40,321 nt of DNA from a virus. Below are positions 4,996-40,321 of this stretch, in pieces (within the stretch, counting starts at the first letter, position 1; each line of letters starts with the position of its first letter). The position numbers were made by a program, and so were the translations under genes. The stretch lies in IMG/VR virus record IMGVR_UViG_3300005529_000019, positions 1-40,321 of that record; one strand, given 5' to 3'. The notes under the pieces are model-generated. The model saw only the letters and a list, made by a program, of their open reading frames with translations, was not told the DNA's origin and made no database searches.

Positions 4996-5361
4996 TCAGG
5001 TTCGATCCAAACCGCCAATGATGCGAGCGAGGCGCTCAAGGCGATCAATTTCCGTGCGATAAAAATCCGAATCCGTCTCACGCATTCCTCCGGCGATGTC
5101 CTGGAATTGAGAGGCGAGCGAAGCCGCCTCTTTTCTCGCCTCTATCAACTCTGCTTCCCGCCTTATGTCCCTGGCAGCCCAGTGTTCCGGGTCTTCGATT
5201 TCTCCGTACCAAAGTGCTTTGACCGTCCGGAAGCTGACCGTCTTGACCTTACGCGGCACGCGAGCCAACCAGCTTTCCCGCGTGTCGCCCCAATCCTTCG
5301 GGCCTGCAACGATGGCGATAGCTCTACGCATACGATCTACTCCGGACGACTTTTCCGACAT
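4996..5361 (-). CDS. Hypothetical early protein, 121 aa
   Basis: The N-terminal half (GPKDWGDTRESWLARVPRKV, then TVKALWYGEIEDPEHWA) resembles a small helix-turn-helix-like fold, and the C-terminal half is a charged coiled coil (ELIEARKEAASLASQFQDIA, ending in RLERLARIIGGLD). A GAGGG ribosome site lies 6 bases before the ATG. It directly precedes the DnaA-like gene. DNA binding is possible but not shown; no family assigned. Confidence 0.75.
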   Translation of the reverse strand: MSEKSSGVDRMRRAIAIVAGPKDWGDTRESWLARVPRKVKTVSFRTVKALWYGEIEDPEHWAARDIRREAELIEARKEAASLASQFQDIAGGMRETDSDFYRTEIDRLERLARIIGGLDRT

Positions 5362-6004: not shown

Positions 6005-6733
6005 ATGGATTTGGTGCGGAAACTGATTCTGGAGCGCTTGCAGGAACTCGGTCTAAATATGGCCGAGGTCTCCGGTCGTCTTGGGCGGAACGAGACTTAC
6101 CTTCAACAGTTCTTAAAGAGAGGATCGCCCCGCGAGTTGCATGAGCGGGATCGCGTTTTATTGGCCGAAATCCTGAACGTTTCTGAAGACCAGCTTCGCG
6201 GTCCGTCGTCAACTTTGCCTAAAAGGGAATACGTTAAAGTAAACCAGAGTGCTCGCGAAAGTTTAGTTGCCGAGTCTTCCCGTCGTCATAATCTGCCTGA
6301 CCAACAAGCAGCTCCGGAGCTAACCGGCGCGAATTTGGTGGGGGATCGTGACTTGCCGGTCTTCGGAACGGCACAAGGTGGTAGCGGGGCCCTGATTGTG
6401 ACAAATGAACCAGTCGACTGGGTTGTACGGCCAGACCCCCTACTTAGGGTTAAGGACGGGTACGGAATGATTGTAACTGGGGACTCCATGGAGCCCGCGT
6501 TCAGGCCGGGCTCGATCGCGCTCGTTAACCCCCACCTGCCCCCAGGATTTGGCGATTTCTGCCTATTCCGCAGCCATGCGGATGATGGGACCGCCCATGC
6601 TGCGATCAAGGAATATCGGGGCGAGACTGACGTTGTTTGGAAGGTCCGGCAATACAATCCGCCAAAAGACTTCACCCTCAAGAAGGCCGAATGGCAAATT
6701 CGACACCGCGTCGTCGGAACGTATTTCACCTAG
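6005..6733 (+). CDS. S24-family phage repressor (CI/LexA-like)
   Basis: A 242-residue lysogeny repressor. Residues 1-65 form an XRE-type HTH (LNMAEVSGRLGRNETYLQQFLKRG). Residues about 115-240 form the S24 peptidase/dimerisation domain, with the serine in GDSMEP (S161) and the lysine in AIKEY (K202). The usual Ala-Gly or Cys-Gly cleavage pair is not obvious; the matching stretch reads FGTAQGGSG, so self-cleavage is uncertain. The GGAG in the upstream dyad lies only three bases from the ATG, so the start may be leaderless or weakly translated. A strong terminator follows. It should repress the leftward operon and probably the rightward one. Confidence 0.93.
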   Translation: MDLVRKLILERLQELGLNMAEVSGRLGRNETYLQQFLKRGSPRELHERDRVLLAEILNVSEDQLRGPSSTLPKREYVKVNQSARESLVAESSRRHNLPDQQAAPELTGANLVGDRDLPVFGTAQGGSGALIVTNEPVDWVVRPDPLLRVKDGYGMIVTGDSMEPAFRPGSIALVNPHLPPGFGDFCLFRSHADDGTAHAAIKEYRGETDVVWKVRQYNPPKDFTLKKAEWQIRHRVVGTYFT

Positions 6734-6760
6734 TCAAACAAGGTTTTAGCCGCCGCTGAC

Positions 6761-6793
6761 GGCCTCGGTTAACCACCGAGGCCAAATTTTTTT
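6761..6793 (+). terminator. Strong Rho-independent terminator after the repressor
   Basis: A perfect 9-bp stem, GGCCTCGGT (6761-6769) and ACCGAGGCC (6775-6783), with loop TAACC is followed by AAATTTTTTT. It lies 28 bases after the repressor stop and should isolate repressor transcription from the early rightward operon, which would then need its own promoter. Confidence 0.92.
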
Positions 6794-19587: not shown

Positions 19588-19845
19588 ATGCGCCAAGATT
19601 TCGATTACGTGACGATGGCCGACTACCGGGCCGACATGAAAGAGTCCTCCGATCGCGCCGTTTCTGTGATCGAGCATATGAAGAAGCGCGCCGAACGGGC
19701 CGAACTGATGTGCGCTCTGGCTGTTCTTGCTGCCGGCGGGAAGGTCGAGATACCCAGCGAATGGATGTATGATCCGAAGTTGCATATCGAGCACACGCGA
19801 AACGATGCTGATATGACCTATGTCATTAGGGTACGTCGCAGCTAA
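19588..19845 (+). CDS. Hypothetical protein, 85 aa
   Basis: The product is helical in the first two thirds (YRADMKESSDRAVSVIEHMK, RAERAELMCALAVLA) and ends in a short beta-like stretch (TYVIRVRRS). A coiled coil is plausible. It lies directly before the structured RNA region. No family recognised. Confidence 0.65.
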   Translation: MRQDFDYVTMADYRADMKESSDRAVSVIEHMKKRAERAELMCALAVLAAGGKVEIPSEWMYDPKLHIEHTRNDADMTYVIRVRRS

Positions 19846-19861
19846 GCGATCATAGGAAGTC

Positions 19862-19980
19862 CCCGGTGGCCTGTGCACAGGCACCGGGCGCCGGTCGGAC
19901 GGTGAAACGTTCAGATCCGACAGAGGTGGCGAGATTCAGCCAAGGCCGAAAGCAACCGCCGCAGCGGGTGGGAGCCCCGC
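19862..19980 (+). ncRNA. Candidate structured RNA, unknown family
   Basis: Four hairpins follow each other. H1: CCCGGT-GCCTG with CAGGC-ACCGGG (19862-19888, one bulged G, loop TGCA). H2: GTCGGA/TCCGAC (19894-19899 and 19916-19921) enclosing TGAA/TTCA with loop ACG. H3: GGTGG/CCGCC (19925-19929 and 19956-19960). H4: GCGGG/CCCGC (19964-19968 and 19976-19980). They fill the only sizeable gap of the rightward arm and stop just before the AAGGAGGG site of the next gene. It could be a 5' leader regulating that gene or a stand-alone phage RNA. No tRNA or known class recognised. Confidence 0.6.
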
Positions 19981-20004
19981 ACTTGGGCAAGGAGGGAAAG
20001 AGCC

Positions 20005-20238
20005 ATGACTGAAGATGAAGCGGCCAAGATCCTGAACCACCTCGTGGACAAGATGATTGCCGAGATCGCCGGCCCTCCACCGAAGCCGAACCAGCTAAGG
20101 GCGATCCGCTACGTCCACGGGCGGTTCGAAAGCGTCGAGATCAACGACAATGGCCAGATTGTAGAACCGCCGCCCAGGTGCTGCTACGGCGGGGTCCTGC
20201 ACGCCCCGAACTGCAAGTATTGGGGCGTGGTGACGTAG
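20005..20238 (+). CDS. Last rightward gene, hypothetical 77 aa
   Basis: AAGGAGGG (19989-19996) sits before the ATG, directly downstream of the folded RNA. The protein is helical at first (EAAKILNHLVDKMIAEIAG), then beta-like (LRAIRYVHGRFESVEINDNG) and ends with PRCCYGGVLHAPNCKYWG. Cysteines may form a small metal site. If the RNA is a leader, this is the regulated gene. Confidence 0.7.
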   Translation: MTEDEAAKILNHLVDKMIAEIAGPPPKPNQLRAIRYVHGRFESVEINDNGQIVEPPPRCCYGGVLHAPNCKYWGVVT

Positions 20239-36196: not shown

Positions 36197-36295
36197 TCGC
36201 TTGCCTTCTGCCGAAACTGTCGGCCCAGAGAACGCGGAAACCGCCGCGCGCGGGAATCCGGCTTCGCACCGGAAGGAGGCTCTGGTTAACCCGGC

Positions 36296-36934
36296 TCAGG
36301 AAGCGAGAAGTAAAAGCGCCTCTTCATCCCGGCGCCGCTTTGCCATCTTGGCTTGCGCCGCAGCCGCGGCCATGCGCTGGTTCTGGATGGCCGCCATATC
36401 GGGCGCCGGCGCAGCTGGAGCGCTGGGCGGCCCCGGCAGCGGCGCGAAACGCGCGACGGTGCGTCGATCGATCGGACCAGGCACTTTGCGCGTGATCGCG
36501 GCAAGCTGCTTCTGGCGCTCGATCTCCTCGAGGAAGTGCCCGACGCCGCCGGTGAAAGCCGGATCGACACCAGCACCCGTCCATATGAGTTGCGCGCTTC
36601 CGTTCAGGAGATACGCGCTGGGATCAGCCAATCCGGTGATGTTATTCGCGATCGAGCCGGTGACCACATACGATCCGGCGATAACGTTTTCGGCAATATT
36701 GAAGGTCTGGCTCGCGCCAGTCATGGCGAAAGAGCCGCTCGCGACGCCTATCACCTCAGAAATCGAGGCTCCTGACATCATGAACGCACCGGCCGCGACG
36801 TTCTCTGTGAGCGTGAACGGCTGAGCCGCACCAATTACGGCGAAGCTGCCGGAGATTGCCGGCATCGATATGTTGCCGCGCTGAATCTGCGCGAGCGCGA
36901 GCCTACCAACAGCGTCAAAGCCTAGAAGTGACAT
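36296..36934 (-). CDS. Virion protein with beta repeats
   Basis: A 212-residue protein. Residues 29-55 and 67-93 are a clear internal repeat: GSFAVIGAAQPFTLTENVAA against GSFAMTGASQTFNIAENVIA, period 38. The repeats are beta-type; the C-terminal third is Pro/Ala-rich then basic (AAQAKMAKRRRDEEALLLL). Likely a head or tail-surface protein. It ends three bases before the gene at 36938 begins to terminate. Confidence 0.7.
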   Translation of the reverse strand: MSLLGFDAVGRLALAQIQRGNISMPAISGSFAVIGAAQPFTLTENVAAGAFMMSGASISEVIGVASGSFAMTGASQTFNIAENVIAGSYVVTGSIANNITGLADPSAYLLNGSAQLIWTGAGVDPAFTGGVGHFLEEIERQKQLAAITRKVPGPIDRRTVARFAPLPGPPSAPAAPAPDMAAIQNQRMAAAAAQAKMAKRRRDEEALLLLAS

Positions 36935-38022: not shown

Positions 38023-40206
38023 TTACTGCGTCCCCACGGGTGCGATGCCGACGATCTCGCCCGTCTGCGGATCGCGGATCAGCTTTTTCGGCGTGTTGAA
38101 GGCGGTCGCGAGCGTGTTCATGTCGCGCCGCATTTCCTGCATGAAGGCCATGATCAGCGCTGCGCTGTCGCCGCCTTGGCTCTGCACCGGGTTGCCGTCC
38201 GCGTCCTTGGCCGGTGCCGCGGTGAGTGTCTTGATCATGGCGCTATGCTGAGCTTCTTCGGCCGCGATCTTCATCTTGGCCTGGCTCTCGGCTTGCATAG
38301 TCTGGATTTTGGCGTCCGACGCTTGCTTGTCGTTCGCCATCTTGGCCTGCGCCTTGTCGTTCTCGAGCTTCAGCTCGGCGTCGCGCTTCTGCTGTTCTGG
38401 ATCGGGCTGCTGCTGGGACTGCTGGATGCTGTCCGAAATGTCCTTCTGGGCCGAGGTCGGCAACGGAGAATATTTGAGCAGCGCAAGCCACGTCGCCGGC
38501 GGCAGCATCTTGCCGATGACCGGCAGGATCTGCTGTAGCATCGCCCAAGTGGCCTCTTTCTGGTTGGCCGAGGTCGGGCTTTCGTCAACGATCACGTCAT
38601 AGGAGCACTTGCCGTCGAAATTGTCCTGCTTGATCAGCGGGACAAACTGCGCCTCTTCAGGCCCTTCGATCTTGATCAGGCGCCCGTCGGACAGATAGTG
38701 CTCGATCAGGTACAGCATGAGCCGTCCCTGTTCTTTCCGGTAGCGGCGAAGGCTGTCGAACAGCGGCTGCAGGATGGTCAAGGCCGACTGCTTGCGCTGG
38801 AGATCGAGCGCCGCAGCCTGCCCGGCCGAGTTCTGCATGCCGAGGATCTCGACGTTGACGCCGGACACGTCGCGAAGCGACTGATTGGCATACTGCATGA
38901 GCTCGAAAGAGCCTTGCGGGAAGGCAGAGACGGGCTTGGCGATGAACGACGGGTTTGGACCAGACAGCGCGCCCGGCTTCAGATATGTCACCTGGTCCTG
39001 ATGTGCCCAGGAGGCTTCGCCGGCCGCGTCATTGTCGAAGAATTTGCCGCGCTCGGCCGCAATGCCGCCCTTCGCGGTCGTGTTCATGATGTGCATGGTC
39101 TGCGACATCCATTTGTTGGACCAGCGCGCAGGGTCTTTCATCGCGCGCACGATGCCAAAGAATGAATTCTTGTTCCGGTCTCGCTTGCCGGTCATGCACT
39201 TGAATGAGAAATGGTTCTTGGCCGGCGCGTCGCCGATCTCGAGCAGCACATTGCCGAGATAGGCCTGGCGATAGACCTTCCGCGTGGTCTTGGTGAATTT
39301 CAGCTGGGCACCAATCAGCGCGGCCTTCTTCTTGAGATCGGTGAATTCGTCCGGCGCTAGCGTGAGGATGTTGCTGCCGGTCTGGTCGGTCGGATCGAGC
39401 ACCAGATAGGCGGGCACGCGCTCCCACCACTGGATGCGGACCATCGTCACGCTTTCGTCGTCGCCTCCGTCCTCGACAAGATTGTCCTTGTCGTAGGTCC
39501 GGGCGTTGACGTGATGCGGATCCTCGCCTTCCTTCTCGTCTCCGATCCATGTGGCGTTGTAGTCCGAATCCTCGAAAGGCCGCTCAGGATCGCCGGGGCA
39601 CAGCGCGCGCGCCTCCTCGATCGGCACCTTGCGGCGAATATGGAAGACGCGGCGGCTGTCCACCAGATTGCGCTTGGTCGCGCTGCTGTCCCAGCCCATT
39701 TCGAGCGGGTCCACGCGGTCAATCTTGGGGTCGCCCTCCGGGTTGTCCTCATAGTCGAGCCGGGTCTCGGTCCAGCCCATGCCGCAGACAACCATGTCGC
39801 GGAAGGCGTCGGATTCCTCATCCTCGGCGTCGCACTCCTGACGGAACCACTTTGCGGCCGAGGTGAGCAGCTCGTTCTTCTTGACGACGCCCTGCGTCCG
39901 CGGGAGGAATTGCACTTCCTGCCGGTTGCCGACCTCCTGGCCGGACACGCTATCGACGGTCGTTCCGATGCGGTTGAAAATGACAATCGGGCGCTTGGCG
40001 TCCTTCAGGATCGCCTTGTCTTCCTCGGACAGCTGCTCGCCGGCGTCGAAATCGAAGTCCTCGCGGGCCTCCTTGCGCCAGTTGACCTGTCCCTTGCTGT
40101 TGTAGTCGAGCTTGATCCAGCCCTTCAGCTTGTCAAAGAGCGCATCGGCGTCGGATGGCGTCTCGGTCGCCTCGCCCGTTCCGGCCTGGTCCGCGTCGTT
40201 CAGCAT
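38023..40206 (-). CDS. Portal protein (P22-like)
   Basis: A 727-residue portal, the DNA channel at one head vertex. Family features: N-terminal KLKGWIKLDYNSKGQVNWR, then FDFDAGEQLSEEDKAILKDA, RPIVIFNRIGTTVDSVSGQE, NRQEVQF and the clip/stem part with GKRDRNKNSFFGIVRAMKDP. The last 130 residues are Gln/Ala/Lys-rich coiled coil (barrel-like helix of P22 portal). ATG 40206 lies at the terminal repeat; across the circle TerL is immediately upstream. The start lacks a clear ribosome site, so the hairpin at 12-32 may matter. Confidence 0.92.
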   Translation of the reverse strand: MLNDADQAGTGEATETPSDADALFDKLKGWIKLDYNSKGQVNWRKEAREDFDFDAGEQLSEEDKAILKDAKRPIVIFNRIGTTVDSVSGQEVGNRQEVQFLPRTQGVVKKNELLTSAAKWFRQECDAEDEESDAFRDMVVCGMGWTETRLDYEDNPEGDPKIDRVDPLEMGWDSSATKRNLVDSRRVFHIRRKVPIEEARALCPGDPERPFEDSDYNATWIGDEKEGEDPHHVNARTYDKDNLVEDGGDDESVTMVRIQWWERVPAYLVLDPTDQTGSNILTLAPDEFTDLKKKAALIGAQLKFTKTTRKVYRQAYLGNVLLEIGDAPAKNHFSFKCMTGKRDRNKNSFFGIVRAMKDPARWSNKWMSQTMHIMNTTAKGGIAAERGKFFDNDAAGEASWAHQDQVTYLKPGALSGPNPSFIAKPVSAFPQGSFELMQYANQSLRDVSGVNVEILGMQNSAGQAAALDLQRKQSALTILQPLFDSLRRYRKEQGRLMLYLIEHYLSDGRLIKIEGPEEAQFVPLIKQDNFDGKCSYDVIVDESPTSANQKEATWAMLQQILPVIGKMLPPATWLALLKYSPLPTSAQKDISDSIQQSQQQPDPEQQKRDAELKLENDKAQAKMANDKQASDAKIQTMQAESQAKMKIAAEEAQHSAMIKTLTAAPAKDADGNPVQSQGGDSAALIMAFMQEMRRDMNTLATAFNTPKKLIRDPQTGEIVGIAPVGTQ

Positions 40207-40321
40207 TCAGCAAAATCCCGATGATCGGGATTTGGGATAGCATTGGCGCGGAAATGGTTTCCCATCAGACGCTTTGCCATGATCCACCGCCGCGCGAGCG
40301 TGACCGCGAATAGGGCACATG
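40202..40321. repeat. Direct terminal repeat, right copy
   Basis: Identical to 1-120. It includes the start of the portal gene and the end of TerL. Interpreted as the overlap left by assembling a circular or permuted genome. Confidence 0.95.

Follow-up and report, generated by a model that had tools for sequence, protein, structure and literature searches.

Multi-hairpin RNAs that lie in phages or inside operons, such as HK022 put and the Bacillus EAR, are antitermination elements that act whatever genes follow them. Phages also encode large RNAs near tRNAs, namely GOLLD and ROOL. Here we describe a structured RNA family of phages that is real and undescribed: a literature search, largely of papers outside subscription, found no description of this RNA. 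It was recognised in a 40.3-kb virus record, the whole of which (40 321 nt) was analysed and is called the window. That the element exists as a conserved structured RNA, on the + strand at 19854-19982, is near certain.

Because the window has identical 120-bp ends (bases 1-120 are identical to 40202-40321), its genome (∼40.2 kb) looks complete, either circular or terminally redundant. It codes for a P22-type portal, capsid, terminase, Erf-like annealing protein and tyrosine integrase. The rightward early genes and the leftward structural genes face each other, and a gap of 159 nt (19846-20004) precedes the last early gene. Elsewhere in the window, ARAGORN calls a tRNA-Arg(cct) at 36248-36333 on the minus strand; the call overlaps predicted structural genes, is absent from Rfam at gathering threshold and is probably a false positive. 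A strong hairpin resembling an intrinsic terminator (GGCCTCGG/CCGAGGCC plus a T-run) is found at 6760-6793, after a repressor-like gene (6005-6733). The element and its two neighbours are laid out as follows:

19588-19845, + strand: upstream co-directional gene (85 aa; no PHROG or Pfam match)
19854-19982, + strand: conserved structured RNA element, AGGAAGTCC...CCCCGCAC, ∼125-129 nt
19862-19888, + strand: hairpin P1, CCCG/CGGG and GCCTG/CAGGC around the self-complementary tetraloop TGCA
19894-19921, + strand: hairpin P2, GTCGGA/TCCGAC, with a conserved 16-nt loop CGRYGARACNYTCWGA
19922-19924, + strand: AGA linker between P2 and P3, from the alignment of members (TGA instead in L106, L152 and L153)
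19925-19960, + strand: P3, a variable hairpin GGTGG...CCGCC (23-42 nt among relatives)
19964-19980, + strand: P4, GCGGG-TGGGAGC-CCCGC, with a UGNRAGC loop (GNRA- or T-loop-like); the most conserved part
20005-20238, + strand: downstream co-directional gene (77 aa; CCYGxxLHAPNCKYW family), with orthologues that lack the RNA

The conserved stretch reaches slightly beyond 19862-19980, the interval reported by a first-pass annotation of the letters alone, and the four hairpins which that annotation placed there were all located (P1-P4). They end, as it said, beside the ribosome site of the next gene (P4 ends at 19980, AGGAGGG is at 19990-19996 and the ATG at 20005). Its '11-bp stem' with a TGCA loop holds in the window, except that one bulged G interrupts the stem. 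The region was indeed worth a second look, but not on the folding grounds given, as its energy is ordinary: the z-score is about -1.1, 28 out of 200 shuffled sequences fold equally well, and the element is at about the 24th percentile among the phage's own 119-nt windows after GC correction. P1 alone stands out: just three 27-mers of the 40 kb, P1 among them, reach -19.2 kcal/mol or lower. By energy alone the element is within chance, and a claim made from this single sequence would not have stood.

Homologues were therefore decisive, and we collected 11 of them (10 from IMG/VR phages and one from a Bradyrhizobium prophage-like region). A 16-mer taken from the element returned L057, which is 93% identical over 129 nt; the rest of its 3.5-kb stretch has no blastn match to the window. 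A scan of Bradyrhizobium genomes returned a diverged end-to-end copy (69%) in the prophage-like region of G517 (locus L106/L164). The invariant 3' hairpin (P4), used as a pattern, yielded nine further full members from IMG/VR (L116, L125, L136, L138, L147, L150, L152, L153 and L161). A covariance model (R1) scores its 12 members at 113-143 bits, by construction, as it was built from them.

Searches elsewhere drew a blank. The whole locus against named phages (blastn), and the element alone against phages and plasmids, gave no match or chance matches only; neither R1 on 385 genomes of alphaproteobacteria nor the P4 pattern on 398 of Pseudomonadota gave a true match. The P4 pattern over 266 Bradyrhizobium genomes returned G517 only, and L057 was the sole true homologue returned by two gapped patterns. 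Among structural relatives (27 portal homologues), the element is absent from the 17 records searched, and likewise from two relatives of gene 20005. Short genome matches at L061, L062 and L107 are by appearance fliH-type or other coding chance matches, and L162, judged by inspection, has the same look. The window terminase has no match in the ten viral carriers, several of which are fragmentary records, in a search whose set held no positive control; the window capsid has a distant match in the phage of L150 only, among the same partly fragmentary records. The carriers are otherwise mostly unrelated phages and prophages, and the RNA has evidently moved between phage lineages.

The fold is kept throughout this collection. 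P1, P2 and P4 are present in all 11 homologues, with 98.8% of cells paired and both-side changes at five pairs (14 cells); P3, which differs in sequence and length, is at least partly paired in all of them. The covariation score is 0.255, compared with 0.141 (sd 0.015) in shuffles and at most 0.062 in slid-partner controls; none of 500 shuffles reached it, although the shuffles ignore the relatedness of members, so that such counts are not probabilities. Even so, the members of the close pairs L138/L150 and L106/L136 differ from each other, so that changes recur. P1 pairs are kept in 95.8-100% of cells, with double changes at two pairs, and its tetraloop is self-complementary in 12 out of 12 members (TGCA in seven, CGCG in four and GCGC in one); the last base of this loop co-varies with a base of the P2 loop in 11 of the 12 (alignment columns 23/56), a hint that the two loops may touch. 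In P2, 98.6% of cells are paired and three of the six pairs show double changes, in three to four sequences each. P3 was aligned by its two ends: 54 out of 60 basal cells are paired vs. 41 expected (the shuffled mean), a count reached by none of 10 000 shuffles, and two members retain just two or three consecutive basal pairs. P4 is invariant among the 12 members, partly by construction, as most were found with the P4 motif.

Two trivial explanations can be weighed at this point. Chance folding of GC-rich DNA, or a gene that was overlooked, would agree with a folding z near -1 and with the open + frame at 19866-20012. This explanation is refuted by covariation and has a next to negligible probability: homologues carry compensatory changes, and P3 lengths differ in places by non-multiples of three, so no reading frame is preserved. 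Thus the annotation's 'unidentified structured RNA' covaries above every shuffle and folds alike in its relatives; it is homology and covariation, rather than energy, that show the element to be real.

The strand also follows from the pairing. With G-U pairs allowed, 237 of 240 cells are standard on the + strand vs. 222 on the minus strand, which makes the + strand the better RNA strand. The same pairs bear on the idea that the palindrome GCCTGTGCACAGGC is the centre of an element acting as DNA, whether the operator of a repressor or a site of replication or attachment. In the window this palindrome is perfect over 14 bp of DNA, and an integrase gene is upstream in five members; but members have G-U-paired arms (GCCTGCGCGTAGGC) in its place, suiting RNA and not duplex DNA, and no second copy of the palindrome is present in the phage. 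Because its arms change to G-U pairs the element is not a DNA operator, and we regard a DNA-level role as highly improbable.

Genomic contexts of the RNA vary among carriers. The genes that follow it encode TerC, PolA-like, zinc-ribbon-like and unrelated small unknown proteins. It precedes a TerC-family gene in L152, L153 and L161 (Pfam confirmed on L152), and is found 0.3-1.1 kb after an integrase-like gene in L057, L136, L147 and L150; in the window and in the Bradyrhizobium copy it comes towards the end of the early operon, with one gene between it and the convergent structural (late) genes. Where both flanking genes are readable they are co-directional, the case being less clear for L116, L125 and L138. 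Upstream of the RNA, L153 and L161 encode a small TerB-like protein that has no Pfam match. Gene 20005-20238 belongs to a small-protein family (CCYGxxLHAPNCKYW-type motif; L003, L039-L043) of phages with one member in a Bradyrhizobium genome; searches of Pfam and PHROG gave no match. Five orthologues of this gene, one of them 70% identical, have no element upstream, and ordinary genes abut them instead.

These contexts count against the first-pass suggestion of a riboswitch-like leader: since the carriers have different genes downstream and the RNA is missing before orthologues of gene 20005 (including the 70% identical one), a riboswitch for this gene is unlikely. Nor does a ligand-sensing riboswitch in general fare well, and we consider it very unlikely. 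The intricate conserved fold would suit one, as would the TerC-family metal exporter gene next to the RNA in three related phages (TerC-type genes elsewhere are under manganese riboswitches), but the next genes in other carriers are unrelated and share no common pathway (TerC, PolA-like, zinc-ribbon-like, unknowns), and no Rfam riboswitch matches.

A cis-acting role in mRNA processing or stability, or as a translational leader, in which P4 would shield or present the next ribosome site or mark an RNase cut, is somewhat better placed and still improbable. About seven of the 12 members have a ribosome-site-like sequence 7-10 nt after P4, in line with the co-directional position. Yet no such sequence is found in L106, L116, L152, L153 and L161, the downstream genes are unrelated, 20005 orthologues manage without the element, and the conservation of loops and linker exceeds the needs of a stability hairpin.

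Relatives of the 3' part were found more widely, as the 20-base P4 pattern also matched loci outside the 12-member family. Thirteen of the 14 non-family places with a GNRA loop have CAGA at most 50 nt upstream, and nine of the 14 show a helix of 4 bp or more between CAGA and P4, where 0.4 would be expected; the five non-GNRA places show none. The set is mixed, because some matches lie in open frames (clearly L146 and L158, perhaps L126, L130 and L154), and the breadth of the domain is uncertain. In L146, P4 motifs occur at 5355 and 5589 (+), 234 nt apart within one 382-aa frame, both preceded by CAGAG and a hairpin; this is either chance or an RNA overlapping a gene. A search of named phages with P4 gave intergenic matches in which the stem is changed yet paired (GCCGG/CCGGC, GCAGG/CCTGC) and the loop kept. 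Many phages of Gamaleyavirus, of Klebsiella and of the D3-like Pseudomonas group contain a related segment, as do E. coli prophages; several of these segments lie in clusters of tRNAs or degenerate tRNAs. In two or three related loci (L148, L135, L122) P4 is directly followed by a U-run. R1 gives P4-only IMG/VR loci ∼17-33 bits, largely from P4, for which reason we treat them as a lead and not as members. One candidate, L169, was rejected as the terminator of a ribosomal gene.

It thus seems that a 3' domain (CAGA, P3, GCNGG-UGNRANC-CCNGC) recurs in other phage RNAs. The UGNRAGC loop of P4 can be taken either for a GNRA tetraloop plus one bulged C or for a 7-nt loop of the T-loop type, and relatives with UGGAAUC and UGGAAAC would favour the latter. 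A bolder and rather doubtful proposal places the element in a wider class of phage RNAs, as the first of its families to be described. The class would share this 3' domain (CAGA linker, variable hairpin, 5-bp UGNRANC T-loop-like hairpin) and occur in phages of alpha-, beta- and gammaproteobacteria, including Gamaleyavirus, D3-like Pseudomonas phages and Klebsiella prophages, often near tRNA genes, and all its members would bind one widely conserved bacterial partner. Named phages that may carry the related domain are D3, ECBP1 and Klebsiella ST147-VIM1phi7.2.

Some of these records hold other non-coding features. L122 and L140 (also L128, L144 and L160) are phage tRNA arrays in which complementary spacers of the TTTAGAATA type delimit several structured non-coding segments; in L122 and L140 the P4-bearing RNA is ∼86 nt before a strong match to permuted tmRNA (RF04321). 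In L170 (ECBP1), L171, L175 and L176, 0.7-1.1 kb of non-coding DNA contains degenerate tRNA-like pieces as well as weak matches to permuted tmRNA, and some of these four have a P3-P4-like segment near a tRNA-Cys or pseudo-tRNA annotation.

An antitermination element of the HK022 put or Bacillus EAR type, in which the nascent RNA would modify RNA polymerase for read-through to any distal genes, is about as unlikely as a processing or leader element. The co-directional intergenic position, the diversity of downstream genes and a complex conserved fold with constant loops all speak for it. Against it, the window and Bradyrhizobium copies come so late in the early operon, a single gene ahead of the convergent late genes, that there is little to read into; related 3' domains are directly followed by U-runs; and the window has no terminator downstream on the + strand.

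We tentatively favour, at a little under even confidence, a trans-acting structured RNA that would be cut from the early transcript, or be stable within it, and bind a partner through its constant loops. It would arise within the early (or integrase-downstream) transcript and probably functions as an independent RNA and not by switching the gene that follows; on this view it would be a regulator or decoy of the phage, not a switch of gene 20005. The 'processed phage sRNA' or 'decoy RNA' offered in the first pass is accordingly the direction we would favour. A host or phage partner may contact the RNA at its constant parts, namely the loop of P2 (CGRCGAAACNYUCUGA), the AGA linker and the P4 hairpin closed by UGNRAGC, P3 being a spacer presumably free to vary. 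A trans-acting RNA is suggested by the unrelated neighbours and, in loci such as L148 and L135, by U-runs that follow P4 at once and leave little downstream for cis regulation; the 12 members themselves have no U-run of their own after P4. The ribosome-site-like sequence 7-10 nt after P4 in about seven of 12 members also fits a cis role, and so counts against a trans-acting RNA. Since phage genomes keep little non-coding DNA, an RNA fold kept under selection in unrelated phages is probably useful against or with the host. The 12 aligned members, the covariance model and the defined strand and ends provide a basis for a direct test of the transcript and its partner.

How, then, does the element compare with known RNAs? 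Rfam 15 (4227 families) was searched at gathering and relaxed thresholds. Over 551 bases of the window, nothing relevant matches with E as high as 10 (two chance matches are elsewhere), seven members have none at E up to 1, and nothing reaches a gathering score in the window or the members scanned. RNase P, HDV-like or hammerhead ribozymes, CRISPR-mimic RNAs, omega RNAs and Y RNAs were dropped, as none matched. Like base-pairing sRNAs of prophages, for example the Pas sRNAs (PMC13192938), the element is a small phage-encoded RNA and probably regulatory; in contrast to them it is recognised by a conserved fold and loops, and an own promoter or terminator was not found (on the + strand P4 is followed by ACTTGGGC, with no U-run and no intrinsic terminator). 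GOLLD and ROOL resemble it as phage RNAs without a protein product, but at ∼125 nt the element matches neither model. HK022 put and the Bacillus EAR resemble it in their several hairpins and diverse downstream genes; it differs from them in hairpin number, sequences and operon-end position, and matches no such family (EAR in Rfam gave no match, nor did put, if included there). Finally, the first-pass remark that the region does not look like tRNA is borne out: ARAGORN makes no call here, nor does Rfam; the 5' and 3' ends show no consistent pairing in the alignment (by inspection); and a conserved acceptor stem, CCA and a TTCRA T-loop are absent, the P4 loop having no TTC. Nevertheless, there are likenesses to tRNA and to tRNA-like RNAs (YrlA, permuted tmRNA RF04321): the order of parts is arm, arm, variable arm and P4; P4, with a 5-bp stem and the 7-nt loop UGNRAGC, resembles a T-arm; and 3' domains related to that of the element sit in phage tRNA clusters.
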